Assembly: GCA_900316685.1 (NCBI GenBank)
Contig: ONDS01000002.1
Location: forward strand, 103,667 to 167,666
Direction of reading: 5' to 3'
From: an uncultured Prevotellaceae bacterium
GTDB lineage: Bacteria > Bacteroidota > Bacteroidia > Bacteroidales > Bacteroidaceae
Length of the DNA: 64,000 bases
The position numbers were made by a program, and so were the translations under genes. The notes under the pieces are model-generated. The model was given only the letters and a program-made list of their open reading frames with translations. It was not told the DNA's origin and made no database searches. This document shows positions 32,673 through 63,452 of the stretch, piece after piece; the first letter of the stretch is position 1, and each line of letters starts with the position of its first letter.

Positions 32673-34352
32673 ATGAACCTACGCGAATATTTCTCTACTC
32701 CCGACAGTAAGTATACAGCCAAACAGACACTCTGGTGGCTGTGGCAGGCATGGAAGGGCAACCGTTTGCAGGCTTCCATCAATGCCGCACTCGGACTCAT
32801 GGGCGTGGGCGCGAGTCTGGCCTCGGTCTGGGCGGTCCAACATGCCATCGATGTGGCATCGGGCGTCGTCGAGGGATCCATCTACTGGGCGGTGGCACTC
32901 ATGGGCGGACTGGTGCTCGTGGAGTTCGCACTGAGCATCGCGGGCATCTGGGTGCGTAATATCCTGGGCATCCGTGCACAAAACCGCATGCAACAGCGAA
33001 TGCTCGACCGTATACTCCGCTCGGAATGGCATGGCAAGGAGAGCCACCATAGCGGCGATGTGCTCAACCGATTGGAGATAGATGTCAACAATGTGGTGGG
33101 GTTCCTCACCGAGACCATACCCAATGCGCTCTCCGTCTTGGCTATGTTCCTGGGGGCTTTCTTCTACCTCTTCACCATGGATAAGTTGTTGGCGTGCATC
33201 ATCATCGCCATCATACCCGTCTTCGTGCTGGTGAGCAAGATCTACGTGCGCAAGATGCGGCAACTCACCCGACAGGTGCGCGACAGCGACAGCAAGGTGC
33301 AGAGCGTGCTCCAGGAGACCATACAGAACCGCATGCTCATCAAGACGCTCGAAGGCGACAGTGCCATGGTCGACAAGTTGGAGAGTACGCAGAGCGAACT
33401 GCGCCATAGGGTGGTGCAGCGCACGGCGTTCTCTGTCTTCTCCAATCTCATCCTCAACTTCGGTTTCGCCTTGGGCTATCTCATCGCTTTCCTCTGGAGC
33501 GCCATACGCTTGTCGGAGAAGACGCTGACCTTCGGTGGCATGACGGCTTTCCTCCAACTTGTCAACAAGATTCAGGGGCCGGCGCGCAACCTCACTAAGC
33601 TGGTGCCGGCGTTCGTGAGTGTGTTTACCGCGGCGGAACGACTGATGGAACTGGAGGAGAACCCGCTCGAAGAACAGGGTGAGCCCATCCGTGTGAAGGC
33701 TCCATGCGGCGTGCGTTTCACCGACGTAAGCTATGCCTACGACGAGAAGGAGGGCAAGGTAATCGACCATCTCTCCTTCGACTTCCGACCTGGCAGCTGC
33801 ACGGCCATCCTCGGCGAGACGGGCTCGGGCAAGACCACGCTCGTGCGCATGATCCTGGCGTTGCTCCGTCCGCAGGAAGGAAAGGTGGAGATATACAATG
33901 CCAAGGAGAGCAAGACGCTCTCGCCACGCATGCGTTGCAACTTCGTCTATGTGCCCCAAGGCAACACGCTCATGAGTGGCACCATTCGCGACAACCTACG
34001 ACTCGGAAAACTCAATGCCTCAGAGGAACGGATGCGCGAGGCGCTGCATAAGAGTTGCGCCGACTTCGTGTTCGACTTGCCTGAAGGGCTCGACACCGTA
34101 TGCACCGAGGCTGGAGGAGGATTGAGTGAGGGACAGGCCCAGCGTATCGCCATCGCCCGTGCCTTGTTGCGCAACCGTGCCATACTGCTCTTCGATGAGG
34201 CCACCTCGGCCCTCGACCCCGATACGGAGCGACAACTGCTCAAGAACATCCTCGCCTCGCACGACCGAACCATCATCTTCATCACACACCGGCCCGCCGT
34301 CGTCGACTATTGCGACCAAACGCTCCGTGTGGAGAAGAGGAGAGAAATGTGA
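32673..34352 (+). CDS. ABC exporter half-transporter
   Basis: A 559-residue fused permease and ATPase. Residues about 30-320 hold six membrane helices of the type I exporter fold. The nucleotide-binding domain has Walker A GETGSGKTT near 381-389, signature LSEGQ, Walker B ILLFDEATSALD and the H-loop in FITHRP. A single half-transporter with no partner gene should form a homodimer. Related Bacteroidetes proteins are lipid or peptide exporters, but the substrate is not readable. It follows nadK after 16 bases. Confidence 0.9.
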   Translation: MNLREYFSTPDSKYTAKQTLWWLWQAWKGNRLQASINAALGLMGVGASLASVWAVQHAIDVASGVVEGSIYWAVALMGGLVLVEFALSIAGIWVRNILGIRAQNRMQQRMLDRILRSEWHGKESHHSGDVLNRLEIDVNNVVGFLTETIPNALSVLAMFLGAFFYLFTMDKLLACIIIAIIPVFVLVSKIYVRKMRQLTRQVRDSDSKVQSVLQETIQNRMLIKTLEGDSAMVDKLESTQSELRHRVVQRTAFSVFSNLILNFGFALGYLIAFLWSAIRLSEKTLTFGGMTAFLQLVNKIQGPARNLTKLVPAFVSVFTAAERLMELEENPLEEQGEPIRVKAPCGVRFTDVSYAYDEKEGKVIDHLSFDFRPGSCTAILGETGSGKTTLVRMILALLRPQEGKVEIYNAKESKTLSPRMRCNFVYVPQGNTLMSGTIRDNLRLGKLNASEERMREALHKSCADFVFDLPEGLDTVCTEAGGGLSEGQAQRIAIARALLRNRAILLFDEATSALDPDTERQLLKNILASHDRTIIFITHRPAVVDYCDQTLRVEKRREM

Positions 34353-44584: not shown

Positions 44585-44701
44585 CTGAAGGCTTCAACTT
44601 GCAATAATATTTGCAAATATAGTGATTCCGTTTTGAAATTCCAAGATTTTTCTTTACAAAATACCATCTGCCTCCCCGATTTGTCTATATCGAGCATAAG
44701 C

Positions 44702-44764
44702 CTTATGGGGCTTATAAGGCTAATAGGGCTTATAAGGCTAATAGGGCTTATAGGGCTAATAATC
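44702..44764. repeat. 9-bp array (CTTATAAGG / CTAATAGGG)
   Basis: Seven units of nine bases, mostly alternating between the two forms. It sits just beyond the amylase terminator. Confidence 0.85.
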
Positions 44765-44765
44765 C

Positions 44766-44805
44766 TAAAAAATCAGGGGAAAGAGCCATCACTCTTTCCC
44801 CTGAT
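44766..44805 (-). terminator. Terminator after the amylase gene
   Basis: ATCAGGGGAAAGAG (44772-44785) and CTCTTTCCCCTGAT (44792-44805) form a perfect 14-bp stem with a 6-base loop. On the minus strand TTTTTT follows. Confidence 0.92.
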
Positions 44806-44827: not shown

Positions 44828-46825
44828 TTACCTAACCACGAACTTCTTGCCGCCGCGGATATAGATGCCGCGGGTGGGGTGGGCTACACGACGGCCTTGC
44901 AGGTCGTAGATGGCATCATCGTCCGTCATGCGTTGGCCTTCAGCTGCCATGACCTCTTCTATGCCCGTGGTCACCACATTCACCTTGTTCTTGCCACCCT
45001 CGGTCTCCGAGGAGATTTCGAAGAACGTGTCTGCGCTGATGTTGTTGATGTCCACGGTCTGCGGCGAGCCTTTGCCCGTGCTGAACACTAAGTTCACGAA
45101 GTCGGTAGCGGTGTTCATGGTGAAGGTTTTGGTGTACCATTGCTTGCCGTTCTTCTCGACCGTGGTGCTCACCTTGTCGCCGGGCCAGTTGTTGTTCTTG
45201 GGCGAGTGGTTGCTGTCGCCGCCCCACGACCAGAAGTTCACGCTCGTCCAACCTACCTGGTCGGTATTCACATAGATGGTGATGTCGGTAGGCTGGAAGT
45301 CGATGATGGTATAGGTGCGGCTCACGATGCCCGTCACGGCGCCGCCGATGAGCAGGCCGGCCTTCAGCGTCGTCGTGCCTATGGGGATGGTCACTGTCGA
45401 GCCGCTGGCCACCTTGGTGCTCGATGCCGTGGGGTCGCTGCCGTCGGTGGTGTACACGATCTGGGCGCTCTCGTTGCTTACGGCGGTCAGCGTGGCCTTC
45501 TGTTCACCGTTATATTCACCCGAGGCGAGGTCAATCCATGCCGTCTGGGCGTCGGTGGGCAGGTAGTAGCGGTAATGATAACCCTCGGCTACCTTGATCC
45601 ACCGTGCGGTGGGTGTGTACTTCGTCACATTGCCCACCACGCACAGTAGGTCGCTGTTGGCTCCCTTGGTGCGCACGGCATAGTGTGTGGCGTCGCCGCT
45701 GAACTTGGAGTATTCGCTTTGGTTGTGTATGCCGGCAAACTGGCGCACGGCGATCATCTGTGCGATGTCTTTCTTGCAGTCTTTCCAGTGCTTGAAGAAT
45801 ACGCAGGGGGTGCCAGGCATGGCGAGCAGGTAGGCGTTGGCGGCCAGGGTGTCGCGCTTGATGGGGTCTTGGTCGGCGTTGGCGCGTTTCTCCGTGTCGT
45901 GGTTCTCCACGAAGGTCACGGCATAGCGGCGGTAGGCGGCGTCGGCCATCACCGACGTGTTGTCGAGTTTCGCCCAGTTGGGCTGGCTGCTGCCGGCGTT
46001 CACCGCGTCGCGCACGGTATAGCGGAAGGGGAAGTCGAAGGCGGCGCTCTGGATGGTGCCGTTCACCTTGGTGGCGTTGATCCAGTTCTCCACGTTGTTC
46101 TTGTTGCCGTCCCAGTATTCGCCTACGCTGAACTGGGGTGCGGCGTCGTGGTTGTACAGACCCACATACGAGCCACTGAAGCCCTTCACCATGTCGTAGC
46201 GGAATCCGGTATAGCCCAGGTCGCCCAGCAGGAAGCCGAGGTAGGCCTTCACGCAGGTCTGCACGTTTTCGCTTTGGTGGTCGAGGTCGCGCATGCCGTC
46301 CCAGCCCTCACCGCTGTCGTTGTTGGTGCTCAGGCTGTAGCCGTTGGCCTCCGCCCAGGTCTTCGTCTTGCCGCCATCGTCGTTGGCGCAGATGTCGGTT
46401 GGGAGCATTTGGTAGGTTACTCCATTGTAGGTTTCCTTTGGGAAGGTCACCCATCCGTCGGTGTTGCGGTGGTTGACCACCACATCGGCGATGGTGCCGA
46501 TTCCCTTGGCCTTGAAAGTGGTGATGAGCGAGCGCAGCTGGCTCTCCGTGCCGAACGTGCTGTTCTGGTCGAACCAGTAGTAGTCGTCGTAGCCCATCGA
46601 CTGCCATCCATTGTCGTTGCACTTGCCGCTCTGCGGTATCCATACGAGCGTGAAGTATTGGGCCAGTTCGTCGGCCTGCGATTCCAGATTGGTCCATTGG
46701 CTGTCGTTGAACGAGTCCCAATAGAATCCTTGCAGCATCACGCCTTGGTAGTTGGCGGGCCAGCCCTGAGCCATCATCGTCGTAGTGAGGGCGAGGGCGA
46801 ACAGTGTAGCGTAAATTTTTTTCAT
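44828..46825 (-). CDS. Secreted alpha-amylase (GH13) with starch-binding module
   Basis: A 665-residue endo-amylase. The start at MKKIYATLFAL gives a signal peptide ending near residue 20. The GH13 barrel has the nucleophile Asp211 (GFRYDMVKG), acid/base Glu236 (FSVGEYWDG) and transition-state Asp310 (FVENHDTE). A chitobiase-like/Ig region follows, then residues about 520-610 with IYVNTDQVGWTSVNFWSW and WPGDKVS, which match a CBM26-type starch-binding module. The last 30 residues (AIYDLQGRRV...GIYIRGGKKFVVR) resemble the tail of the GH53 protein and suggest type IX secretion. An operator-like palindrome lies 56 bp upstream of its -7 box. Confidence 0.93.
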   Translation of the reverse strand: MKKIYATLFALALTTTMMAQGWPANYQGVMLQGFYWDSFNDSQWTNLESQADELAQYFTLVWIPQSGKCNDNGWQSMGYDDYYWFDQNSTFGTESQLRSLITTFKAKGIGTIADVVVNHRNTDGWVTFPKETYNGVTYQMLPTDICANDDGGKTKTWAEANGYSLSTNNDSGEGWDGMRDLDHQSENVQTCVKAYLGFLLGDLGYTGFRYDMVKGFSGSYVGLYNHDAAPQFSVGEYWDGNKNNVENWINATKVNGTIQSAAFDFPFRYTVRDAVNAGSSQPNWAKLDNTSVMADAAYRRYAVTFVENHDTEKRANADQDPIKRDTLAANAYLLAMPGTPCVFFKHWKDCKKDIAQMIAVRQFAGIHNQSEYSKFSGDATHYAVRTKGANSDLLCVVGNVTKYTPTARWIKVAEGYHYRYYLPTDAQTAWIDLASGEYNGEQKATLTAVSNESAQIVYTTDGSDPTASSTKVASGSTVTIPIGTTTLKAGLLIGGAVTGIVSRTYTIIDFQPTDITIYVNTDQVGWTSVNFWSWGGDSNHSPKNNNWPGDKVSTTVEKNGKQWYTKTFTMNTATDFVNLVFSTGKGSPQTVDINNISADTFFEISSETEGGKNKVNVVTTGIEEVMAAEGQRMTDDDAIYDLQGRRVAHPTRGIYIRGGKKFVVR

Positions 46826-46852: not shown

Positions 46853-46860
46853 CGAAGATA
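46853..46860 (-). promoter_or_regulatory. Amylase -7 box, weak
   Basis: TATCTTCG on the minus strand, one base off TAnnTTTG, 28 bases ahead of the ATG. No -33 box is visible, which suits an activator-dependent promoter. Confidence 0.5.
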
Positions 46861-46915
46861 CGACTTTTCGCGATAGGGTGTACCCCTCGAACCTCACCTT
46901 TTGCGCAAATCACAA

Positions 46916-46929
46916 TGCAATCGGTTGCA
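46916..46929. promoter_or_regulatory. LacI-type operator upstream of the amylase gene
   Basis: TGCAATCGGTTGCA, a palindrome with arms TGCAA/TTGCA and CG near the centre. Its promoter-side edge is 56 bases from the amylase -7 box. Confidence 0.65.
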
Positions 46930-46936
46930 TGAGAGT

Positions 46937-46976
46937 AAAAGAAGAGGAGGCTCGGATAGAGCCTCCTCTTCTTTTT
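46937..46976 (-). terminator. Terminator after susF
   Basis: AAAAGAAGAGGAGGCTC and GAGCCTCCTCTTCTTTT form a perfect 17-bp stem with a 5-base loop. On the minus strand it closes the susCDEF operon. Confidence 0.92.
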
Positions 46977-46985
46977 GGTATTGGC

Positions 46986-47066
46986 CTTATTGGGCTTATA
47001 GGGCCTATTGGGCTTATAGGGCTAATAAGGCTAATAAGGCTAATAAGGCTTATTGGCCTAATAGAC
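46986..47066. repeat. 9-bp array (CTTATAGGG / CTAATAAGG)
   Basis: Nine units of nine bases run up to the base before the susF stop codon. Same family as 44702-44764, so both arrays lie between a gene end and its terminator region. Confidence 0.85.
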
Positions 47067-47067
47067 C

Positions 47068-48801
47068 TTACTTCTTCGTGATGATGCAGTGGCTGCCGCC
47101 GCTGTAGCTCGGGAAGAGCTTGATGTCGTAGGTGCCTGCCTCCACGGGGATGTCGCCACCGCCGATCCACAGCTCGTTGGGTGAGCCGCCCAGGTCGAGG
47201 TCGCCGTTCCAGTTGTCGTTGCCGCGGAACTTGATCTTGCCATCGGTCAGCGTCAGGTTCTCAATGTACCAATAGCCGTACTCGGCGTTCCATGTCATAT
47301 CCTGGTCGCTGTCCCAGCCGTTGGCGGTGGCGTCGCCAATCACACCCACGGTGGTGATCGGGATCAGCGTGTAGAACTGGCCGTAAGGGTTGAGGATGAT
47401 CTTATAGAAGCCAGGATCGGGGCCGGGCATGTCTGAGCCGCCGTTATCGGCCACCTTGCCGGTAACTCCATCTTCACCCGGACCATCATACTCGAGGTCG
47501 TTGTCCCAGTTGTTCTCGTTCGGTTTGAATTTGAACCCGCCGTTGAGGTAGTAGTAGCCTACGAAATCATCGCCTTGGCGCGACAGCGGATGGCTCTTCG
47601 ACCAACCACTCTCATTGCCGATCTCGAAGAACATGTCGCCGCCCATGATGGTACGGTAGCCCCATTCGAGGCTTTGCAGGTTGAACCACACGTCGTAGGC
47701 GATGGCGTCGGGTTGATGCTCGATGATCAGGTTGCCACCGGCGTTGTTGGCGGCCAACTTACCCGGCTCGCTTGTCGCCGTGGCGGTGAAGTCGCTGTCC
47801 CATGTGCCTAAGGCTGAACCCGGACAGAGTTTAAACTCGATGTTACTGCCAGTGGCAGGAACACGCACCTGGAACACGGGGTCGATGCCACCGGGAGCGC
47901 CACTGCCGCTGTATACGGGATAATCGGTATTGCTGGGATCCCAATCATTGATGCCAATCATGTAGTACACATCCTCGATGCCATACACGGGCTTGTAACT
48001 CCACGTCTCGTCCAGCATGTTGAAGGTCAGGTCGAAGGCCACGGCCTGCGGGTCGGCGGGGATTTTCAGGTTGCCGCCCTTGTTGTTGGTGACGAAGGTA
48101 CCTTCTTCCTCACCGGCGCCAAGGCAGAGGTCCCACGAACCGGCGGGAGCACCCTTCGGGTTGACCTTGAACTCCACATCGGAGCCGTCGGTGGTGTTGG
48201 GGATGCGACCGGTGAACACGGGGTTCTCATACGGATCCACACCGCCGTTGGTCAGGGGCAGGCCGGTGTAGTCGATGTTCCATGCTCCGTCACCAACGTT
48301 GGCCACGACGTTGCCCACCACATAGTATTCATCATAGATGATCGGGGCGGCGGGAGTGATCACGGCGATGGCGTTACCCAAGGCCTTGGCGGTCATTCCG
48401 TTCACGTCTATGTAGCCCACGATGTCGAGGGGAATCTGACGAGCCTGGGGACGTTTGCCATAGAGGGCTTCCACGGCGGCACGCAATTCTTCGGCGTTCA
48501 CGTAACCGTCGCCGTCGGCCTGCAACGTCATGCTCTGCGAGCGGTCTTCATTCCAGAGGGTCACCTCGTAACTGGCGGTGGTGGGGTCGTTGGCCGTCAC
48601 GTGCGGTACGAAGAGTTGGAGTGTCGTATTCTCGGGGTCGGTCACGTCGGCAAAGTCGATGGCCGAAGCATCCGACACATCCAGGGTGATCGTGCTGGCA
48701 TTTTCCGGACCATGGGTCAACGGGTCGGCCCAGTCGGTGTAGTCGTCGGTACAACTGGCAAAGCAGAACACCAGTCCGACAAGATATAATAACTTTTTCA
48801 T
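47068..48801 (-). CDS. susF: SusF/SusE-family starch-binding lipoprotein
   Basis: Surface lipoprotein (Cys17 in FASC, followed by TDDYTDW) of 577 residues. It has an N-terminal SusE-type domain and then repeated starch-binding modules; the DVYYMIGINDWDPSN and VGVIGDATANGWDSDQDMTW segments are examples of the repeated Gly-Asn/Asp-Trp pattern. Last gene of the susCDEF operon. Helps hold starch at the cell surface. The name is by position and family rather than exact orthology. Confidence 0.9.
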   Translation of the reverse strand: MKKLLYLVGLVFCFASCTDDYTDWADPLTHGPENASTITLDVSDASAIDFADVTDPENTTLQLFVPHVTANDPTTASYEVTLWNEDRSQSMTLQADGDGYVNAEELRAAVEALYGKRPQARQIPLDIVGYIDVNGMTAKALGNAIAVITPAAPIIYDEYYVVGNVVANVGDGAWNIDYTGLPLTNGGVDPYENPVFTGRIPNTTDGSDVEFKVNPKGAPAGSWDLCLGAGEEEGTFVTNNKGGNLKIPADPQAVAFDLTFNMLDETWSYKPVYGIEDVYYMIGINDWDPSNTDYPVYSGSGAPGGIDPVFQVRVPATGSNIEFKLCPGSALGTWDSDFTATATSEPGKLAANNAGGNLIIEHQPDAIAYDVWFNLQSLEWGYRTIMGGDMFFEIGNESGWSKSHPLSRQGDDFVGYYYLNGGFKFKPNENNWDNDLEYDGPGEDGVTGKVADNGGSDMPGPDPGFYKIILNPYGQFYTLIPITTVGVIGDATANGWDSDQDMTWNAEYGYWYIENLTLTDGKIKFRGNDNWNGDLDLGGSPNELWIGGGDIPVEAGTYDIKLFPSYSGGSHCIITKK

Positions 48802-48826
48802 TGCTGTACTGTTTTTTCGTTATACC

Positions 48827-49957
48827 TTACTGTGCGTTGATCTCCACACGGTTGTTTCCTTCATAACTGATGTAGAGTTTGAACTCGTAGGTGCCTGCTG
48901 TCAACGCGATGTTCTCGCCGTTATGCTGTGTCAGGTCATTCAGGTTCTGGTCGGTCTTGGTGCGCGCACCCCAACTCACGGCCCAGTCGTGGTTCATGCG
49001 GAACTTCACACCGCCATCGTTGGGGAGAGTAGCCGTACCTACCCAGCAGCCTCCACGCTTGTCGTAGGTCATTTCCACATCATCGTCCCAACCGTTGAAG
49101 TCGCCGATGATGCTCAGGTTCTTCACCTGCGTCACACTCCACGTCATTTCCACGATGTTGACATCGATCTGGTAGAAACCGGCAGCTAAGAGTTTGTCTT
49201 GGAACGAACCGTCTTTCTTGTTGCAGTCTTCCTCGCCGTCGACCACCAAGGTGCCATAGGCGCCATTGGGATCCTGGCCCCAGTCGCCAGCCCAGTCGTC
49301 GGCATTGGGCTTGAACTTGAAGCCGCCGTCAAGGTAGTTGTACGACTGGTAGATTCCATCGGCGTTCAGGCAGTACATCGGGTAGGAAATTTTCCATTCA
49401 CTCTCGTTGCCGATCTCGTAGATGAATTCGGGAAAGAGAATCACCTCCTGTAATGTGGGCGACACGTTCACCGACACCACATTGGAGTAGATCACGGGTG
49501 CACCCTTGGTGGTGGCAGTAGCACGCACGTAGATGGGAACGCTCTCGGGAACGGGGTTTTCTTCGCTATAGCCGTTCATCTGGTTGATGGCGTTGTTCAA
49601 CGCAGCGGGGTCGATTGACCCTTCCGGCGTGTTGTAGTAGGCCGACAAGGTGATGTAGTCGGCATCGGTAAAATGATCCTCATCCACGTCTTTCAGGTTG
49701 ACGGTGAAGTTGCCGTTTTTCGACGCTTGCAACTGGTATTCGGCCTCCACGGGGAACCCGTAGTCGGGCTGCGACCAGGTGAATGGGATGCCATAGGAGT
49801 GGGCCAGGTCGATGAGCGCGCTGGAGTAGGCGGGTATATTCAGCGTGAAAGTGGTCGGCTGCAAGAGGGTGGGGTTAGAGTCGTTGTCGTCGGAACAGGC
49901 CGTGAACAACACCACACCGCACAATAGCAGCATTGCTGACTTGATTATCTTTTTCAT
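48827..49957 (-). CDS. susE: SusE-family starch-binding lipoprotein
   Basis: A 376-residue surface lipoprotein (Cys21 in LFTAC, followed by SDDNDS). N-terminal Ig-like SusE domain (TFTLNIPAYSSALIDLAHSYGIPFTW) and C-terminal starch-binding modules with LSIIGDFNGWDDDVEMTYD. It precedes susF by 25 bases. Works with SusD and SusF in starch binding. Confidence 0.92.
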   Translation of the reverse strand: MKKIIKSAMLLLCGVVLFTACSDDNDSNPTLLQPTTFTLNIPAYSSALIDLAHSYGIPFTWSQPDYGFPVEAEYQLQASKNGNFTVNLKDVDEDHFTDADYITLSAYYNTPEGSIDPAALNNAINQMNGYSEENPVPESVPIYVRATATTKGAPVIYSNVVSVNVSPTLQEVILFPEFIYEIGNESEWKISYPMYCLNADGIYQSYNYLDGGFKFKPNADDWAGDWGQDPNGAYGTLVVDGEEDCNKKDGSFQDKLLAAGFYQIDVNIVEMTWSVTQVKNLSIIGDFNGWDDDVEMTYDKRGGCWVGTATLPNDGGVKFRMNHDWAVSWGARTKTDQNLNDLTQHNGENIALTAGTYEFKLYISYEGNNRVEINAQ

Positions 49958-49993
49958 TGTATTGTCTTGTTTCGTTTGTTGTCGACGTATGGG

Positions 49994-51625
49994 TTAGTAT
50001 CCGGGATTCTGCACCAGATTGCTGTTGGCAGTCAGGTCGGTGGTCGGAATGGCGAAGAGGTTGCGGTAGGCGGGGAAATCGCGGCCTTCCAAGGTGCCGC
50101 CTTTCCACGACCACTGGTAGTCGGTGTTGCCGCCGTATCTGTTGTAACGGATCAGGCAGGTGCGGCGCAGGCCCTCGAAGTAAGTCTCGCGGCTCCACTC
50201 GTCGAGGATGTCGTCTAAGGAGTAACTCGAACGGGCTCCGGCGTGGGCGCGCAGGCGCAGTTGGTTCAGCGCATCGACACCGGCAGAGGTGGCGTTGCCA
50301 CCGTTCTGGCGTGCCGTGGCCTCGGCGTAGATGAGGTAAGCCTCGGCCTTACGCATCAATGGGCAGTCCATGTCGGGATGTTTCGGGTCGTTACCAGCGG
50401 AACCGTCGGTCTTGAAGTTGGTGAACTTGGCCACGGAGAAGCCGCTGGTGAATACGCCCGGTTCGGTGTTCTCCAAGGTACGTTCCCCTACGCTGCTGAA
50501 CATGGCACGGTCGTCGCCGGCTTCCGTTTTCATCTCATAGCCGGGAATGCCGAGGGGTGCGTTGCCGTCGGGGAAGAATTTCAGCACCAATTCCTTGCGG
50601 GCGCGGTTGCCCTTCCATCCCGGGTCGGCTCCGTTGACAGCCCTCTCTTCTTCGGGTTTGTCGGCATCGAGCGGGTTCTCATGCATGTCATCCTGGAATG
50701 GACCAGCGATGAGGAACAGCGAGGTGCCCCAAGACGTGGTGCGTTTGCCATCCTGCAAGAGGGGCCAAATGATCTCGTAGGCGGCGCTGGTCTCGCCGTT
50801 GTCGCCCATGAACAGCATCTGATAGGCGCTCCATACACCCACCCCCGTGGTGTTGAGTTTATAGTCGGAATCCATCACTTTCTTGGCATACTCGGCGGCC
50901 TTGTCCCACTGGGCATTGCCGGTGTACACGCCAGCGTTCAGATACAGACGGGCCAACAGCATCCAGCAGGCGGCCTTGTCCACGCGCCCATAGTTGGCGT
51001 CGCTCGACTTCTTGGCCTTGGCATCGCTCAGGTTCGGCTCGATGTCGAGCAACTCGTCCTCGATGAACTGGTACACCTCGGCGCGCGAACGCTGCTCTGG
51101 TGCGCTGCTGCTGATAGACGTGGCAAAGGGGATGTTGCCCCAGCCATCCATCAACTGGAAGTAGTGGAAGGCGCGCAGGAAACGGATTTCCGCGGTCATC
51201 GTGGCGTCATGGTCGGCATACTGGTCCAAGTACTGGTTGCAGAAGGTGATAGCGGTGTACAGACGGTAGTAGTAGCCGCGAAGCATCGGGTGCGAGGCGT
51301 TGTAGGAGTTGTCTACGAAGTTGGAGATACCCTCATCGCCCCAGCCGCAGATGGCCTCGTCGGTGGTCAGGTCCTGGGCGTTCCACATCTGACGGTAGTA
51401 ACCGGAGGTTCCGCCGTCGATACCGTCCACATCACTGTCGCCGTCGGCACCACCGTTGCCGGCGGCTGCCATCGTGGCGTAGCACTTGGTGAACAACAAC
51501 TCGGCGGAGGGCTCCGCATAGTTGGGGTCGATAGGCTCCACATCAAGGTCACCGGTGCATGCTGTCGTTCCGAAGGTCAGCGCAAAGGCCAACAGGGGAA
51601 CAAATGTTTTGATATATCTTTTCAT
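49994..51625 (-). CDS. susD: SusD-family starch-binding lipoprotein
   Basis: A 543-residue outer-membrane lipoprotein (Cys23 in TTAC, followed by TGDLDVEPIDPN). The SusD fold is clear: the TPR-like first half (YYRLYTAITFCNQYLDQY, EIRFLRAFHYFQLMDGWGNIPF) and the RagB/SusD C-terminal part ending in ETYFEGLRRTCLIRYNRYGG, WKGGTLEGRDFPAYRNLFAIP. It forms the lid of the SusC transporter. The susE gene follows after 36 bases. Confidence 0.95.
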   Translation of the reverse strand: MKRYIKTFVPLLAFALTFGTTACTGDLDVEPIDPNYAEPSAELLFTKCYATMAAAGNGGADGDSDVDGIDGGTSGYYRQMWNAQDLTTDEAICGWGDEGISNFVDNSYNASHPMLRGYYYRLYTAITFCNQYLDQYADHDATMTAEIRFLRAFHYFQLMDGWGNIPFATSISSSAPEQRSRAEVYQFIEDELLDIEPNLSDAKAKKSSDANYGRVDKAACWMLLARLYLNAGVYTGNAQWDKAAEYAKKVMDSDYKLNTTGVGVWSAYQMLFMGDNGETSAAYEIIWPLLQDGKRTTSWGTSLFLIAGPFQDDMHENPLDADKPEEERAVNGADPGWKGNRARKELVLKFFPDGNAPLGIPGYEMKTEAGDDRAMFSSVGERTLENTEPGVFTSGFSVAKFTNFKTDGSAGNDPKHPDMDCPLMRKAEAYLIYAEATARQNGGNATSAGVDALNQLRLRAHAGARSSYSLDDILDEWSRETYFEGLRRTCLIRYNRYGGNTDYQWSWKGGTLEGRDFPAYRNLFAIPTTDLTANSNLVQNPGY

Positions 51626-51646
51626 GACTTTTAATCTTTATCGTGT

Positions 51647-54600
51647 TTAGAAGTTCAAGTTCAGACCAAGTTGGAACGTGATGGGGCGCGGATAGACGCC
51701 ATTGTCGATACCACCGAACACCTCAGGATCGATGCCTTTGTATTTGGTGATGCAGAAAACATTGGAGGCGGTGGCGTAGACACGCCCGCTCACGCCATGG
51801 TAGTTGCCCACCTTGAACAGGTCGGCGAAGCTGTAACCTAAGGTGATGTTGTCGCACTTGAGGAACGAGGCGTTCTGTACCCAACGGTCGGAGTGGGTGG
51901 CTTCCACATCATAGGTCTGCCAGCCGTAAGGAACCACATAACTCGGGCGGTTCTGCAGGTAGCCGCTATAATAGATGATGTTGGATGCCAGGGCGCTGTT
52001 GCCTGCCATGAAGTCGTTGTACACGTAGTTGCCGATGCTGGCGCGCAGCGAGAAGCCGAAGTCCCAATTCTTATACTCTAAGCGCGAGGCCAGACCCATC
52101 GTCACGGGAGCCATCGGGTTCTTGTAGAGGTATTGGTCCGACTCGGTGATCTGTCCGTCGCCATCGCGGTCCACCACCTGTCCTTCGATAGGCATGCCGG
52201 CTTCGTCGTAAGCCTGTTGGTAGACGAGGAACGAAGAGGCGGGATAGCCCACGGCATGAGCCTGGATGGTACCGCCCGTACCCGCGGAGATACCACCGGT
52301 GAGCACCTTGTAGTCGGGGTCGTCGCCGCCACCGAGCTTCAGAATACGGTTCTTGTTATAGGTGAAGTTGTAGTCGATGGTCCAGTACCAGTCCTTGGCT
52401 TGGATGGCTTTCCAACTGAAGGCCACCTCGACACCGGTGTTGTACATCGAGCCGATGTTGGTGGTCACCTTGTTGCGGAAGTTGGAACCGGCGGCCACGT
52501 AGGCATCGTTGAGCAGGTCGGTGGTCTTGCGGTAGTACCAGTCGACGCTACCGGTCAGGCGTTGGTTGAAGATACCCCAGTCCAGACCGATGTTATAGGT
52601 CGTGGTGGTCTCCCACTTCAGGTTGGGGTCGTAGGCCACGGGACGCACGAATGTACCGTCGCCGATGATGTCGTAGAAGGAACCAGCGGCACCGTTGTTC
52701 ACTTGGTAGAGGGGGAAGTAGTTGTAGTCGCCGATGCCCTCCTGCTGACCGGTCATACCCCAGTCCAGACGGAGTTTCAGGTCGCTCAGCCAACTGATAT
52801 CACGGAACTTGTTCTCGTCTTTGATCTTCCATGCGAAAGCCACGGCGGGGAAGATTGCCCAGTGGTCCTTGAAACGTGAGGAACCATCGTCACGCACGGT
52901 GACGGTCAGGTAGTAACGGTCCATCAAACTCCAGTTGGCACGGCCAAAGAACGATACGAGGTAGTTCTCCGTCTTGTAATTATAGAAACTCTCGTTGCGC
53001 TTGGTGCCTACCAACGACTTGTCGTTGTTCGTCTCGGGATAAAGACCCCAGTAGTTGTTGTGCAAAGTGCGCCAGTAGTGTGCCCACTCATAACCGACCA
53101 TGATGTCGAAGTGGTTCTTGGCTTTATCCTCGAAATCATGATAGTACTGGGCGTATGTCGACAGCGTGAGGTTACGCTTCATGATGGTCTCCCAGCCGTG
53201 CGAGCCGTAGTAGATAGCCAATGCGTTGCGGGGATCAACGTCGGTCCACTGCTTACCTTTCGAAATGTCGGCACCGAGGGTGGCGTGCAGGCGCAGGTCC
53301 TCGAAACCGTGGATTTTGTAGTCGAACTCAGCACTGCCGATGAACGAACGGCTGATGGCGCGGTCGTCCTTCAGCTCGAGGATGGCCACGGGGTTCTTCG
53401 TCGCGAGGTTGTTGTAGGTGGTTGCCCATGAACTGTCGTTGAGCGAGGCACCGGAGTTCTGCCATTGGAAGTAACCTCCAAAGTTGGTGGCGTTGCTGTC
53501 GTAGACACTCTGGCTCGGGTCGAAGGCCACGGCGGAGTTGATGGCTTGACCGTCGGCATACTGCGACTTCGCCCACAGTCCCTTGGCGTTCAAGGTGATG
53601 GTGAGGTGGTCGTCGAAGAGTGAGGGGTTCAAGGTCAGCGCGGCGGTGTAACGCTGGAAGTCGGAGGTCTTCAGGATACCCTGTTGGTCGGTGTAGCCCA
53701 ACGATACGCGGTAGGGTAGGGTGCCTAAGGCTCCGGCGATGGTCACGTTGTGGTCGTGGCTGATGGCGGTGCGGTAAATCTCATCCTGCCAGTCGGTGTT
53801 GGCGGTGCCCAGAAGGCCTACAGCCTCGTCGTGGTTCGATGCGCCCTGGAAGATCTGGTCTACGAAGGTGCGGAACTCATCGCCGCTCATCACGTCGATG
53901 GTCTTCTTCTTCATACCGATGTTCACGTTGCCGGCGTAAGAGACGCTGGGAGCGGAACCCTTGCGGCCTTTCTTCGTGGTGATGATGATGACACCGTTAG
54001 AACCACGGCTACCATAGATAGCGGTGGCGGAGGCACTCTTCAGCACGTTGAACGACTCAATGTCTTGGGGATTGACCATGGCCAAGGGGTTGGCCAGACC
54101 TTTCACACCGTTGTTGTCCATAGGCACACCGTCAATCACAATCAACGGGTTGTTGGAGGCGGAGAGGGATGAACCGCCACGGATACGGATGGTGGAGCTG
54201 CCACCCGGCGTACCACCGTCGCTGGTCACGTTCACACCGGCGATCTTACCGGCCATCATCTCCTGCGGTGTCACCACCAAGCCCTTGTTCTTCGAATCGG
54301 GCTTCAGGGCGGTGACGGCACCGGTCAGGTCGGTCTTCTTCACAGCACCGTAACCGATGACCACCACTTCGTTGAGCACTTCGGAGTCTTCCTGCAATGT
54401 CACGACGACATTGGTGGAAGCTGTCACTTGCGCCGTCTGATATCCGATGTAGGATATCTCAAGCGTAGCTCCTGCGGGTGCCTGCGTGGTGAAGTTGCCA
54501 TCGAAGTCGGTCACCACGCCGCCGGTCTGACCCTGCACGCGTACGGTGGCTCCAATGATCGGTTCACCGGCAGCATCCTCTACATGGCCATTCACAGCGA

Positions 54601-54691
54601 TATTCTGTGCCATGGCGCTTACAGATAGGAACAGCCCTAAAAATAGAGCCAGAATCCTAAAGGGGATTCTTGAATTTACCTGCTTCATCAT
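51647..54691 (-). CDS. susC: SusC-family TonB-dependent starch oligosaccharide transporter
   Basis: A 1014-residue outer-membrane transporter. Signal peptide (about 1-28), carboxypeptidase-D-like regulatory domain (VNGHVEDAAGEPIIGATVRVQG), TonB box region near VVVIGYGAVKKTDLTGAV, plug domain with IRIRGGSSLSASNNPLIVIDGVPMDN, then a long beta-barrel ending in LGLNLNF with the terminal Phe. It imports maltooligosaccharides with SusD. First gene of the operon, 21 bases before susD. Its leader is about 75 bases. Confidence 0.96.
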   Translation of the reverse strand: MMKQVNSRIPFRILALFLGLFLSVSAMAQNIAVNGHVEDAAGEPIIGATVRVQGQTGGVVTDFDGNFTTQAPAGATLEISYIGYQTAQVTASTNVVVTLQEDSEVLNEVVVIGYGAVKKTDLTGAVTALKPDSKNKGLVVTPQEMMAGKIAGVNVTSDGGTPGGSSTIRIRGGSSLSASNNPLIVIDGVPMDNNGVKGLANPLAMVNPQDIESFNVLKSASATAIYGSRGSNGVIIITTKKGRKGSAPSVSYAGNVNIGMKKKTIDVMSGDEFRTFVDQIFQGASNHDEAVGLLGTANTDWQDEIYRTAISHDHNVTIAGALGTLPYRVSLGYTDQQGILKTSDFQRYTAALTLNPSLFDDHLTITLNAKGLWAKSQYADGQAINSAVAFDPSQSVYDSNATNFGGYFQWQNSGASLNDSSWATTYNNLATKNPVAILELKDDRAISRSFIGSAEFDYKIHGFEDLRLHATLGADISKGKQWTDVDPRNALAIYYGSHGWETIMKRNLTLSTYAQYYHDFEDKAKNHFDIMVGYEWAHYWRTLHNNYWGLYPETNNDKSLVGTKRNESFYNYKTENYLVSFFGRANWSLMDRYYLTVTVRDDGSSRFKDHWAIFPAVAFAWKIKDENKFRDISWLSDLKLRLDWGMTGQQEGIGDYNYFPLYQVNNGAAGSFYDIIGDGTFVRPVAYDPNLKWETTTTYNIGLDWGIFNQRLTGSVDWYYRKTTDLLNDAYVAAGSNFRNKVTTNIGSMYNTGVEVAFSWKAIQAKDWYWTIDYNFTYNKNRILKLGGGDDPDYKVLTGGISAGTGGTIQAHAVGYPASSFLVYQQAYDEAGMPIEGQVVDRDGDGQITESDQYLYKNPMAPVTMGLASRLEYKNWDFGFSLRASIGNYVYNDFMAGNSALASNIIYYSGYLQNRPSYVVPYGWQTYDVEATHSDRWVQNASFLKCDNITLGYSFADLFKVGNYHGVSGRVYATASNVFCITKYKGIDPEVFGGIDNGVYPRPITFQLGLNLNF

Positions 54692-54772
54692 TAGATAGTT
54701 ATTAAGTTAAAATATGGTTGTTAATAGTATTTCCGCTTGTTTCGATATTAGGCTTATCGCTGTAATTAAGTG

Positions 54773-54780
54773 CAAAGTTA
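54773..54780 (-). promoter_or_regulatory. susC -7 box
   Basis: TAACTTTG on the minus strand. No TTTG lies at the -33 position. Confidence 0.6.
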
Positions 54781-54834
54781 AGTTTCTTATGGTTTCGTTG
54801 TACTTTTTTTGCAATAAATTTACAAATCTTACAG

Positions 54835-54848
54835 TGCAATCGTTTGCA
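54835..54848. promoter_or_regulatory. LacI-type operator between susC and its regulator
   Basis: TGCAATCGTTTGCA. Its left edge is 55 bases from the susC -7 box and its right edge is 56 bases from the -7 box of the divergent LacI gene, so one site is centred between the two promoters. Confidence 0.7.
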
Positions 54849-54903
54849 TTAACGAAAATGCTTAAATGATTGGTAATGAGTGACAGCGTATCGGCGTTTT
54901 TAT

Positions 54904-54911
54904 TATTTTTG
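54904..54911 (+). promoter_or_regulatory. -7 box of the LacI-family regulator
   Basis: TATTTTTG, 19 bases before the ATG at 54930. No -33 box. Confidence 0.6.
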
Positions 54912-54929
54912 CATTCACAATCGTTACCT

Positions 54930-55955
54930 ATGGATAAACTCAGCCCCATCACGATGAAGGATATCGCACAGGCACTCGGCGTGTCGGTGGCGACGGTATC
55001 GCGTGCACTCAAGGACAGCCCGCGCATCAGTCCCGAACGAAGGGAACTGATCCAGGCTTACGCGCGCGAACATAATTTTATACCTAACGTGATAGCCGAG
55101 TCGCTGCGCTTCAGCCGAGTGAAGCCGTTGCGCATTATCGGTGTCATCATACCCCAGTTCACCCATTTCTATTTCTCGTCCATACTCAGCGGCATCGAGC
55201 AGGAGGCCTCCACGCATGGATACCGGCTCATGGTGGCGCAGAGCAACGAGCAGTACCAGCGCGAGGTGGCCATTTGCCAGTCGTTCTACGAGAACAAGGT
55301 GTGCGGCATCATCGTTTCGCAGGCCAAGGACACGATGAAGTACGACCATTTCCAGCGACTCATCGACAATGGGGTGCCTTTGGTGTTCTACGACCGTATC
55401 TGTACGGGCGTGGATGCCAGCCGTGTGGTGGTCGACGACTACCAGGGGGCTTACAATGCGGTGAAACACCTCATCGACACTGGATGCCGGCGCATCGCCT
55501 ATTATGGCGCATCGATGAACCTGGAGATATCCAAGAACCGTTACAATGGTTACCACGACGCACTCACACGCCACGGACTGAAGCCCGACGAACGCTTTAT
55601 CAGGTATTGCGACAACCGCGACGATGCGGAGACCATCACCCCCGAGATCCTGCAGATGGATGACAGGCCCGATGCCTTCTTTGCCATCAACGACGATACG
55701 GCCATCGGCATCATGTATACCGCCAAGCGCATGGGGCTGAGCGTGCCGGGCGATATCTCCATCTGCGGCTTCACCAACGGACAACGGGCGGTGGCCTGCG
55801 ACCCCATGCTCACCACCGTCGAGCAGCGCGGCCACGTGGTGGGTGAGGAGGCGGCCAACATCCTTATTGGTAAGGTGGAGGGCAACATACCCATGGAGAA
55901 GGTCGAGAAACGTGTGGTGCGCACACGCCTCATCATCAGGGGAAGCACGAGGTAG
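54930..55955 (+). CDS. LacI-family transcriptional regulator of the starch genes
   Basis: A 341-residue LacI protein. The HTH is at about 8-55 (MKDIAQALGVSVATVSRALKDSPRISPERR), with the hinge helix at NVIAESLRF. A periplasmic-binding-protein-like effector domain follows (IGVIIPQFTHFYFSSILSGIEQEA to DISICGFTNGQRAVACDPMLTTVEQ). The start at MDKLSPI is fixed by the -7 box 19 bases upstream. It is divergent from susC across a single palindrome. The operator geometry suggests activation, probably with a maltooligosaccharide effector; this is inference. Confidence 0.92.
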   Translation: MDKLSPITMKDIAQALGVSVATVSRALKDSPRISPERRELIQAYAREHNFIPNVIAESLRFSRVKPLRIIGVIIPQFTHFYFSSILSGIEQEASTHGYRLMVAQSNEQYQREVAICQSFYENKVCGIIVSQAKDTMKYDHFQRLIDNGVPLVFYDRICTGVDASRVVVDDYQGAYNAVKHLIDTGCRRIAYYGASMNLEISKNRYNGYHDALTRHGLKPDERFIRYCDNRDDAETITPEILQMDDRPDAFFAINDDTAIGIMYTAKRMGLSVPGDISICGFTNGQRAVACDPMLTTVEQRGHVVGEEAANILIGKVEGNIPMEKVEKRVVRTRLIIRGSTR

Positions 55956-55967
55956 AAAGCATGGTTC

Positions 55968-56075
55968 CTATAGCATCTATAGGCTCTATAGTTTCTATAG
56001 CATCTATAGTTTCTATAGCATCTATAGTTTCTATAGCATCTATAGTTTCTATAGTCTCTATCGCATCTATAATAT
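55968..56075. repeat. 9-bp array (CTATAGCAT / CTATAGTTT)
   Basis: Twelve units of nine bases between the regulator and transporter genes, most beginning with the palindrome CTATAG. The same family recurs at 58104-58175. Confidence 0.9.
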
Positions 56076-56099
56076 CAACTATAAAATATAATAATCATT

Positions 56100-57404
56100 A
56101 TGGTACAGAAACCCGATCTTTCCTTTTGGAAATTGTGGAACCTGAGTTTCGGATTTTTCGGCGTGCAGATAGCTTATGCGTTGCAGAGTGCCAACATCTC
56201 ACGTATCTTCCGCACTTTGGGGGCCGACCCCCACAGCCTGAGTTTCTTCTGGATTCTGCCCCCGCTCATGGGCATCCTGGTGCAACCCATCGTGGGTTCG
56301 CTCTCCGACAAGACATGGTGTCGTTTCGGACGACGCATTCCTTACCTCTTCGTGGGGGCTGCCGTGGCCGTGGCGGTCATGTGCCTGCTGCCCAACTCGG
56401 GCTCTCTTGGCTTGTCCATCTCGGCGGTCATGATTTTCGGACTGCTCATGCTCATGTTGCTCGATACAAGTATCAACATGGCCATGCAACCCTTCAAAAT
56501 GCTGGTAGGCGACATGGTCAACGAGCGCCAGAAGGCGAAGGCCTATTCCATACAGTCGTTCCTCTGCAATGCGGGTAGCGTGGTGGGATTCCTCTTCCCC
56601 TTCATCTTCACATGGATAGGTCTGCAGAACACCGCTCCCGAGGGTGTCGTGCCCGAGTCGGTGGTTTGGTCGTTCTATGTCGGCGCGCTCATTCTCATCC
56701 TCTGCGTCATCTACACGACGATGAAGGTGAAGGAATGGAACCCGCAGCAATACCGCATGTACAACCCGGTGAACGAGGAGAATGAGACGAAGGCCAACTG
56801 GTTTACGTTGTTGAAGAACGCCCCGTCTACGTTCTGGAAAGTCGGTCTCGTGCAGTTCTTCTGCTGGTCGGCGTTCCTCTATATGTGGACCTATGTGGTC
56901 GATGCCGTATCGCTCACCGTGTGGGGTACGGCGGATGCGGCCACCGAGGCTTATCAGACGGCGGGCAACTGGACGGGCGTGCTCTATGCCATACAGGCGT
57001 TGGGCAGTGTGGCCTGGGCGGCCATCCTGCCGCAGTTCAAGAACACCAAGTTGGCGTATGCCGCCAGTCTGGTGCTGGGAGGCATCGGCTTCGCCCTCAT
57101 ACCCCTCTGTCCCGGACAGTATTTGCAGATCGTTCCCTTCCTGCTCATCGGTTGTGGATGGGCGGCGATGCTCGCCATGCCCTTCACCTTCGTGACCAAC
57201 GCCTTGCAGGGATATGGCCACATGGGCGCTTACTTAGGCCTGTTCAACGGCACCATCTGTCTGCCCCAGATCATCGCAGCCCTCCTCGGAGGCGTCATCC
57301 TCAATTTGGTGGGCGGTGTGCAGAGTAACATGATGTTCGTGGCGGGTGCTCTCCTCATCTGCGGAGCCTGCGCCGTAACTATCATCAGGGATAAAACGAA
57401 TTAA
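56100..57404 (+). CDS. MFS sugar transporter, SLC45/GPH-like
   Basis: A 434-residue inner-membrane carrier with about twelve hydrophobic helices. FWKLWNLSFGFFGVQIAYALQSANISRIFRTLGA, PPLMGILVQPIVGSLSDKTWCRFGRRIPY (the MFS loop motif between helices 2 and 3) and DTSINMAMQPFKMLVGDMV are typical of the maltose/sucrose carriers beside Bacteroidetes sus loci. It would take up maltose or maltooligosaccharides from the periplasm. It lies downstream of the LacI gene and may be cotranscribed with it. Confidence 0.88.
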   Translation: MVQKPDLSFWKLWNLSFGFFGVQIAYALQSANISRIFRTLGADPHSLSFFWILPPLMGILVQPIVGSLSDKTWCRFGRRIPYLFVGAAVAVAVMCLLPNSGSLGLSISAVMIFGLLMLMLLDTSINMAMQPFKMLVGDMVNERQKAKAYSIQSFLCNAGSVVGFLFPFIFTWIGLQNTAPEGVVPESVVWSFYVGALILILCVIYTTMKVKEWNPQQYRMYNPVNEENETKANWFTLLKNAPSTFWKVGLVQFFCWSAFLYMWTYVVDAVSLTVWGTADAATEAYQTAGNWTGVLYAIQALGSVAWAAILPQFKNTKLAYAASLVLGGIGFALIPLCPGQYLQIVPFLLIGCGWAAMLAMPFTFVTNALQGYGHMGAYLGLFNGTICLPQIIAALLGGVILNLVGGVQSNMMFVAGALLICGACAVTIIRDKTN

Positions 57405-57410
57405 TCAATC

Positions 57411-57499
57411 GGAGTAATCGGATTGCTCTGATTATTCCGATAACTCTGATAACTTTGATTATTCCGATTACTCCGATTATTCTGATTACTCCGACCATT
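57411..57499. repeat. 9-bp array (GATTATTCC / GATTACTCC)
   Basis: Nine or so imperfect units fill the whole gap between the MFS stop and the ATG of the PAP2 gene. Confidence 0.8.
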
Positions 57500-58069
57500 A
57501 TGAGAAAACTTCTCCTTATACTCTCGCTCCTCGTAGCCACTACTCTTTCCGCACAGGACAAGAAATACCATGGCGACGGTCCCGACGATGTGCTGCAATA
57601 TGTGCCTTTCGCCTCGGTGTTCGCCCTGAAGGCTCTGGGTGTGGAAAGCGAAAGCTCATGGAAAAGGATGGGCATCAACGTAGGCGCTTCCTATGTGTTG
57701 TCGGCGGGTGTGGCCTGGGTGCTCAAACATACCGTCAAGGAAGAGCGGCCCGACGGCACCGACGACAGGGCCTTTCCCTCCGGCCATAGTACCATCGCCT
57801 TTGCGGGTGCACACGCCTTGCACAAGGAGTATGGTCACCTGAGTCCCTGGATATCCGTGGCGGGCTATACCGTGGCCACCTTCACGGCGGTCGACCGCGT
57901 AGCCCGTAACCGCCATCACTGGTACGATGCCGTGGCGGGCGCTGCCATCGGCATCCTGGGCACCGAGGCGGCCTACTGGCTGTGCGACAAGATCACCGGC
58001 TGGAATGAGAAAGGTAATTATCGCGTGGGCGTATCGCCAGGAGGCATATCCCTCGCCATAGGGCTATAG
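57500..58069 (+). CDS. PAP2-family phosphatase, exported
   Basis: A 189-residue protein starting at MRKLLLILSLL with a signal peptide to about residue 19. All three PAP2 motifs are present: KHTVKEERPDG, FPSGHST and RVARNRHHWYDAVAG. Family members remove phosphate from phosphatidic acid, undecaprenyl pyrophosphate or lipid A. The substrate is open. Its place inside a starch locus has no obvious reason and may be incidental. Confidence 0.88.
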   Translation: MRKLLLILSLLVATTLSAQDKKYHGDGPDDVLQYVPFASVFALKALGVESESSWKRMGINVGASYVLSAGVAWVLKHTVKEERPDGTDDRAFPSGHSTIAFAGAHALHKEYGHLSPWISVAGYTVATFTAVDRVARNRHHWYDAVAGAAIGILGTEAAYWLCDKITGWNEKGNYRVGVSPGGISLAIGL

Positions 58070-58074
58070 CTTCT

Positions 58075-58102
58075 GTAGGGGCGGTGCCTTGTGCCCGCCC
58101 GC
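58075..58102. repeat. 28-bp dispersed repeat, inverted copy of 41522-41549
   Basis: GTAGGGGCGGTGCCTTGTGC, continuing to CCGCCCGC. It is an exact inverted match to the sequence at 41522-41549. Confidence 0.75.
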
Positions 58103-58103
58103 T

Positions 58104-58175
58104 CTATAGCATCTATAGCATCTATAGCATCTATAGCATCTATAGTTTCTATAGTCTCTATAGTTCCTATAGTTT
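58104..58175. repeat. 9-bp array (CTATAGCAT and related units)
   Basis: Eight units of nine bases, same family as 55968-56075. Confidence 0.9.
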
Positions 58176-58179
58176 CCCC

Positions 58180-58211
58180 AAAAAGGAATGCAAACGTTTG
58201 CATTCCTTTTT
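58180..58211. promoter_or_regulatory. 32-bp perfect palindrome with LacI-type operator core
   Basis: Arms of 16 bases beginning AAAAAGGAATGC, with TGCAAACGTTTGCA at 58189-58202 in the middle. The core edge is 55 bases from the malQ -7 box. The T-run at its right end also makes it look like an intrinsic terminator for the PAP2 gene, so it may serve both roles. Confidence 0.7.
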
Positions 58212-58256
58212 GCATAAAACTTCACCTTATTTATAACAACGTAGGGTAATTATTCG

Positions 58257-58264
58257 TAATTTTA
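58257..58264 (+). promoter_or_regulatory. malQ -7 box, weak
   Basis: TAATTTTA, one base off TAnnTTTG, about 28 bases ahead of the ATG. No -33 box. Confidence 0.45.
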
Positions 58265-58291: not shown

Positions 58292-63195
<4,904 letters not shown>

Positions 63196-63212: not shown

Positions 63213-63452
63213 TATGCTGTCAGTCGTCGGATTATCTATGCTGTCCGTCGTAGGATTATCTATGCAGTCAGTAGTAGGATTATCTATGCTGTCCGTAGTA
63301 GGATTATCTATGCTGTCCGTAGTAGGATTATCTATGCAGTCAGTAGTAGGAGTATCTATGCTGTCCGTAGTAGGATTATCTCTGCTGTCAGTAGTAGGAG
63401 TAACTATGCTGTCCGTAGTAGGATTATCTCTGCTGTCAGTAGTAGGAGTAAC
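63213..63452. repeat. Ten-copy 24-bp tandem repeat
   Basis: Ten units with the pattern TATGCTGTCCGTAGTAGG plus ATTATC, no spacers. Units 7-8 and 9-10 are identical pairs, a 48-bp higher-order copy. The 24-base period leaves open frames on both strands (MLSVVGLS on plus, PTTDSIDN-like on minus), which are repeat artefacts. It directly abuts the palindromic element at 63458. Confidence 0.95.

Follow-up and report, generated by a model that had tools for sequence, protein, structure and literature searches.

Operator spacing points to a probable LacI-family activator of starch genes in Bacteroidales

A starch-utilization locus is encoded in a 64,000-nucleotide stretch of DNA from an uncultured Prevotellaceae bacterium (GCA_900316685.1, contig ONDS01000002.1, positions 103,667 to 167,666 of the forward strand), which is referred to here in its full length as the window. 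Within this locus, the gene for a LacI-family regulator is divergent to susC, and palindromic operators stand at nearly the same distance from the -7 boxes of four promoters. It is likely that the regulator activates the starch promoters through a class I-like contact with RNA polymerase, a sign of regulation that we infer from the arrangement of sites and promoters. With somewhat less assurance, the protein is regarded as one representative of a conserved Bacteroidales LacI starch activator of class I, whose operator is tied to the position of the -7 box: in one clade through a constant spacing, and across many families through displacement by full turns of the helix. A LacI-family activator had been proposed in a first-pass annotation of the window, and the proposal is supported by a susC gap that is kept at 55 or 56 bp, by displacements of approximately one helix turn beyond these relatives, and by depletion of the -33 element across the genus. 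A fixed distance at unlinked promoters, helical steps, and a missing -33 box are all predictions of class I activation, and none of the three would follow from simple steric blocking.

Operator distance in the window, its relatives and distant families

Gaps were measured from the end of the 12-bp operator core, GCAANCGNTTGC, to the -7 box, for which the consensus is TAnnTTTG. The three TGCAANCGNTTGCA palindromes claimed in the first-pass annotation are present, and the gaps claimed for the amylase, susC, lacI, and malQ promoters were reproduced (Table 1). In the 3.15-Mb assembly, which is 89.83% complete, these three are the only exact TGCAAnCGnTTGCA palindromes, and the reversed control pattern does not occur. 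Since the amylase and malQ boxes each have one mismatch to TAnnTTTG, equal spacing within the window alone is suggestive. A near-match at 32757 (GGCAACCGTTTGCA) was considered as a fourth site and rejected, being internal to an open reading frame (ORF) and without a box.

For comparison with relatives, regulator neighbourhoods were taken from congeners (L034-L061, L094-L102), from other genera of the family (L074-L093, L103-L106), and from 80 named contigs (L107-L186), mostly of Bacteroides and Paludibacter-type organisms. Seven named loci were removed as duplicates of contigs from other genomes, and the remaining set, which includes the window, numbers 135 loci. The susC start was readable in 108 of these and unreadable in 27, of which 22 are named loci. 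The operator core was allowed at most one mismatch, and a box is an exact TAnnTTTG unless stated. All 108 readable loci have the operator, and in 105 of them an exact box lies 55 bp (45 loci) or 56 bp (60 loci) away; in the other three (L076, L078, L101), the box found 55 or 56 bp away has one mismatch. The susC gap is therefore not random in homologous loci but is 55 or 56 bp wherever it could be read in the family and the Paludibacter-type group. B. fragilis (L113, L185) has the same layout, at 56 and 56 bp. On the lacI side, an exact box is found in 123 of the 135 loci, at 53 bp (17), 54 bp (7), 55 bp (58), 56 bp (32), or 57 bp (9), and all 17 boxes at 53 bp belong to Paludibacter-type loci.

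It is the length of the spacer that is kept while its sequence is replaced, as spacer identity between groups (0.29-0.35) is close to that of shuffled spacers (0.28-0.32). The distance from operator to ATG ranges from 69 to 315. Where the promoters are apart, or where two operators occupy the intergenic region, a separate operator stands 55 or 56 bp from each promoter's box (L058, L075, L080, L083, L089, L104, L105). Exact boxes in the genus loci are found at 55 bp in 35 of 76 cases, at 56 bp in 27, and at 57 bp in 8; within 100 bp of the operator, with positions 54-57 excluded, their rate is 0.0016 per position. A susC spacer element, AAAAAAGTACAACG, was tried as a shared signal and rejected, for it is strong in the susC promoters of the genus but does not appear in the consensus of either Bacteroides or Paludibacter. 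The common feature is therefore spacing, not spacer sequence.

The same distance recurs in a sample assembled independently of the regulator, consisting of strict genus sites that lie beyond the loci described above (45 sites from 40 regions, among the matches listed). Among these listed matches, 34 of the 38 intergenic sites have a box at the distance (31 exact at 53-58 bp and three with one mismatch at 54-57 bp), four have none (L190, L192, L222, L224), and none of the seven ORF-internal sites has one. For random positions the figure is 29 of 6600 (0.4%). The genes behind the listed sites include amylases, malQ, GH97, susC, and lacI; a few downstream genes (e.g., L193, L215, L216) match none of the window's own. 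Both searches covered 36 congeners, and at least one strict site is present in all 29 that have a LacI ortholog. In two of these (G006, G010) the strict site is only ORF-internal, and the lacI operator is a one-mismatch copy. Six of the seven congeners that lack the ortholog, several of which are incomplete genomes, have no strict site, and the seventh (G027) has three, all ORF-internal. LacI2-like matches occur in two of the seven (G027, G031). In the malQ-like loci of five congeners without the ortholog (L353-L358), no operator core was found at one mismatch or fewer, the G027 match being a weak one at 32% identity.

LacI2 is a second LacI protein of the genus, 34-39% identical to the regulator (L227 3419-4534, G000:C14; L228-L246). 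Its operator, GTAAACGTTTGC, GTAAACGATTGC, or GCAAACGTTTGC, is nearly the same as that of the regulator, and in 15 of 20 genomes it lies 18 or 19 bp from LacI2's own -7 box, over the -33 region; in the remaining five the box or site is absent or different (51 bp in L240). A site over the -33 region is a blocking, or class II-like, position. Thus, LacI sites in these genomes do not stand at 55 bp as a general rule.

Beyond Bacteroidaceae and the Paludibacter-type group, LacI orthologs of 37-54% identity are also encoded divergent to susC. A first distant set held 59 loci, of which 37 have a divergent susC, 34 have an operator, and 23 (from 22 genomes) have an exact box at 30-110 bp. The susC gaps in this set are 45, 54-57, 67-68, 78-79, and 90 bp, and a second operator of L269 is at 43 bp. 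The phase test was fixed in writing before a second set of 40 loci was fetched (23 with a divergent susC, 20 with an operator, and 13 with an exact box). Gaps of the second set fall mostly on the steps of the first, with 36 and 64 bp off them, and the two sets agree when the period and phase of the first are held fixed (V-test p=6e-4). Across both sets the step period is 11.3 bp (bootstrap 10.85-11.75, n=35 loci). The phase persists when one value is taken per family and turn (n=24 from 22 families, R=0.775, 0/5000 null draws as high; L286, without a family label, excluded) and in single-operator loci alone (n=31, best period 11.2 bp, R=0.790, 0/5000 null draws as high). As a control, the lacI-side gaps gave no strong phase (n=12, R=0.31). 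The stepping of the susC gap by approximately 11 bp is face-of-helix dependence. A helical repeat near 11 bp in vivo is known from work on lac looping. A class-wide search beyond the order was uninformative, with a divergent susC in two of the 14 loci examined, one of them with an operator and without a box. In four distant loci (L269, L282, L300, L310), tandem operators stand 12 bp apart between lacI and susC.

The first-pass annotation had further held that none of the four promoters has a -33 box, while most other promoters of the window do. With TTG at -23 to -17 from the -7 box as the criterion, the first part stands, since none of the four has a -33 TTG in its spacer; the second part is weaker, as TTG is present in five and TTTG in four of nine control promoters. 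Across the genus, TTG falls in the -33 window of 7 of 89 regulon promoters and 42 of 98 control promoters (p=4e-8), and TTTG in that of 2 regulon promoters and 23 of 98 controls. In the susC promoters of the genus, a conserved A-tract followed by GTACAACG lies at approximately -30 to -16 from the -7 box (about 54797-54810 in the window). This element occupies the place of the absent -33 box, a place similar to that of an UP element.

Proposed mechanism and competing explanations

The proposed activator would act as a LacI dimer, as the palindrome and the protein family suggest, bound to GCAAnCGnTTGC operators. With the box centre taken as -7, the operator centre would be about 72 bp upstream of the presumed start (-72). 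From this position the dimer would contact RNA polymerase from one helix face, most likely at the C-terminal domain of the alpha subunit (alpha-CTD), and recruit it to starch promoters with a missing or weak -33 box. The predicted regulon comprises amylase, susCDEF, malQ-GH97, and the regulator itself, and the signal would likely be maltose or a short malto-oligosaccharide. The arrangement of class I activation, a single upstream site at a fixed, helix-phased distance, was found, with tandem operators in the four distant loci.

Several points weigh against this reading. Loss of the -33 element is not universal, as 15 of 22 Paludibacter-type susC promoters have a -33 TTG. The lacI side misses 12 of the 135 loci: no operator was found within 450 bp of lacI in nine (L055, L100, L124, L127, L149, L153, L158, L162, L172; only 86 and 162 bp of upstream sequence are available for L055 and L124), and three with an operator have no box at 52-59 bp (L090, L123, L169, the last with a box at 45 bp). 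Of the loci with an operator in the two distant sets, 11 of 34 and 7 of 20 are without an exact box at 30-110 bp. Taken by itself with a refitted period, the second distant set gives a weak signal (p=0.054 against a uniform null and 0.008 against a smoothed one). The step of 11.3 bp exceeds 10.5 bp, and this, together with the 12-bp tandem operators, means that operator duplication could explain part of the stepping, although the single-operator loci by themselves behave similarly. Because lacI shares the geometry, a pure activator would be positively autoregulated. Finally, contact repression of the GalR type would share the geometry as well, and equal spacing alone therefore gives no sign; in the available text of PMC4693257, alpha-CTD contact by GalR at -60.5 leads to activation of gal P2 but to repression of gal P1, the latter from the same DNA face.

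A dual regulator would activate susC, amylase, and malQ while repressing its own gene, so that the lacI spacing would be a by-product of the shared operator. This explanation, which overlaps the favoured reading, is a real possibility, if the less probable one. It is consistent with family f22, in which one operator has a gap of 55 or 56 bp to the box of susC but of 18 or 19 bp to that of lacI, where it covers the lacI -33 region (L250, L251, L062), and with the Paludibacter-type loci, in which lacI is at 53 or 54 bp while susC stays at 55 or 56 bp. However, where two operators are intergenic, lacI keeps its own at 55 or 56 bp (L058, L075, L083), which a by-product does not explain.

The main competing explanation is a contact repressor, in which a LacI dimer at about -72 freezes polymerase from the same face, as GalR at OE does at gal P1, until maltose releases it. 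LacI-family proteins are mostly repressors, the geometry of lacI suits autorepression, and the -33 TTG kept in most Paludibacter-type susC promoters also speaks for it. Nevertheless, the -33 TTG is mostly missing from regulon promoters in the genus, as would be expected if they depend on an activator, and LacI2 shows that operators of this genus can and do lie over the -33 region. A further point against contact repression concerns OsuR, a starch regulator of B. fragilis that may correspond to this LacI protein: it reportedly mediates maltose induction and was described as an activator by Spence in 2006. Contact repression is considered unlikely.

It is highly improbable that another protein, such as the LacI2 paralog, uses these operators: its recognition helix is nearly identical (VSIATVSRAL vs VSVATVSRAL) and so is its operator, but the strict sites follow the presence of the LacI ortholog among the congeners. 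Inheritance of the distance by shared descent, or an excess of boxes, has a negligible chance of accounting for the core claim and is refuted for it, since, although the loci are homologous and most share synteny of the divergent lacI/susC pair, spacers compared between groups are hardly more alike than shuffled ones, the unlinked amylase, malQ, and GH97 promoters have the same distance, and boxes are rare in the background, at random positions, and at ORF-internal sites.

If class I-like activation by the LacI protein is correct, these loci would represent an experiment in helix phasing of a LacI protein that nature has carried out across a phylogeny, and would give a defined activator geometry for -33/-7 promoters. 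A distance kept at unlinked promoters, a replaced spacer, and whole-turn shifts elsewhere lead to a clear mechanistic prediction. The results also point to a likely starch regulator for species without SusR, and "operator plus 55 bp" offers a simple rule for target prediction.

The regulator and its starch locus

The regulator has an N-terminal LacI helix-turn-helix and a periplasmic-binding-protein-like sugar domain, the architecture of the LacI/GalR family (Pfam PF00356, 6.5e-15; PF13377, 1.5e-30; PF00532, 3e-27). The core conserved upstream is a palindrome with a central CG, as in LacI/GalR operators, and is its predicted binding site. The protein passes no named NCBIfam LacI model among the 17 families listed (MalI, CcpA, PurR, GalR, and others), its top score being 197.2 bits against the CytR cut-off of 436. 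Its best matches in the PDB are CcpA chains, with PurR lower in the list. The nearest named relative among the loci fetched is an uncultured Prevotella (L186, 76% identity), so that the genus is probably Prevotella. With a LacI architecture and palindromic operators, it falls outside the SusR family.

By Pfam, the minus strand of the locus encodes a GH13 amylase, SusF-like, SusE, SusD, and SusC proteins, and the divergent plus strand encodes the regulator, an MFS transporter, a PAP2 protein, GH77 (malQ), and GH97. The malQ and GH97 genes presumably form one operon. The malQ -7 boxes often read TAnnTTTA instead of TAnnTTTG, both in the window (58257-58264) and in the malQ promoters of L034-L037, L045, L095, and L210, which suggests a weaker or different promoter class. 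Five intergenic tandem arrays lie in the locus (44696-44768, 46979-47063, 55964-56071, 57421-57494, 58102-58176), with a basic period of 9 bp throughout (also 18 and 27 bp) and units that differ. An array of a 24-bp unit in 9.8 copies (63213-63447) lies a short way past the GH97 gene.

Table 1. Operators, -7 boxes, and genes of the starch locus, in window coordinates; gaps run from the operator core to the box.
Feature	Coordinates	Strand	Remarks
Operator 1, TGCAATCGGTTGCA	46916-46929		Upstream of amylase gene
Operator 2, TGCAATCGTTTGCA	54835-54848		Common to divergent susC and lacI promoters
Operator 3, TGCAAACGTTTGCA	58189-58202		Upstream of malQ
Amylase -7 box, TATCTTCG	46853..46860	-	One mismatch; gap 56 bp
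susC -7 box, TAACTTTG	54773..54780	-	Gap 55 bp
lacI -7 box, TATTTTTG	54904..54911	+	Gap 56 bp
malQ -7 box, TAATTTTA	58257..58264	+	One mismatch; gap 55 bp
GH13 alpha-amylase with CBM26	44828..46825	-	Pfam; start ATG at 46825
SusF-like protein	47068..48801	-	Pfam
SusE-like lipoprotein	48827..49957	-	Pfam
SusD	49994..51625	-	Pfam
SusC (TonB-dependent transporter)	51647..54691	-	Pfam
LacI-family regulator, 341 aa	54930..55955	+	Pfam (scanned as longer ORF 54870-55955), NCBIfam, PDB
MFS sugar transporter	56100..57404	+	Pfam; 3′ of lacI
GH77 4-alpha-glucanotransferase (malQ) with CBM20	58292..60973	+	Pfam
GH97 gene (SusB-like)	60970..63195	+	Pfam; overlaps malQ end

Comparison with known systems

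In literature searches, which left most subscription papers uncovered, no description was found of this geometry or of activator placement at Bacteroidota -33/-7 promoters. Class I promoters of E. coli CRP have their sites at -61.5, -72.5, -82.5, and -92.5. The present system resembles them in its single upstream site for a presumed dimer, its helix-turn distance steps, and, in the genus, a promoter core element that is probably weak; it differs in that the protein belongs to the LacI family, the promoters are of the Bacteroidota -33/-7 type, and the alpha-CTD contact is a predicted one. GalR at gal OE is also a dimer of the LacI/GalR family, which at about -60 touches the alpha-CTD of polymerase; in the account given by the available part of PMC4693257, it acts at a single locus, with repression of P1 and activation of P2, whereas here one geometry recurs at many promoters.

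Two Gram-positive LacI-family proteins are also comparable. CcpA is described in both catabolite repression and activation in the accessible portion of PMC5263246. In contrast to the present regulator, which has the look of a local, starch-related regulator from Bacteroidota, CcpA is global and acts together with the co-factor HPr, according to the part of PMC8359418 at hand. Deletion of MdxR in Enterococcus faecium lowers maltodextrin gene expression; the description of this Gram-positive system, as far as the available text of PMC3737153 extends, gives no fixed operator geometry.

Within Bacteroidota, the SusR protein of B. thetaiotaomicron is a starch-responsive activator of sus genes, the role proposed here for the LacI protein. 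Unlike the LacI-family regulator, SusR is a membrane protein with a periplasmic sensor, direct-repeat sites, and no LacI domain, as presented in the available sections of PMC3878776. Bacteroides LacI regulators have been named for uronates and related sugars, with none for starch among those described in the accessible parts of PMC3878776 and PMC4052901. For B. fragilis and B. uniformis, LacI-type regulators are named as predictions, without an operator or geometry in the available text of PMC11633381. As in the window, a LacI-type regulator is combined with an MFS transporter in the sus loci described there, and the two species lack a SusR homolog.

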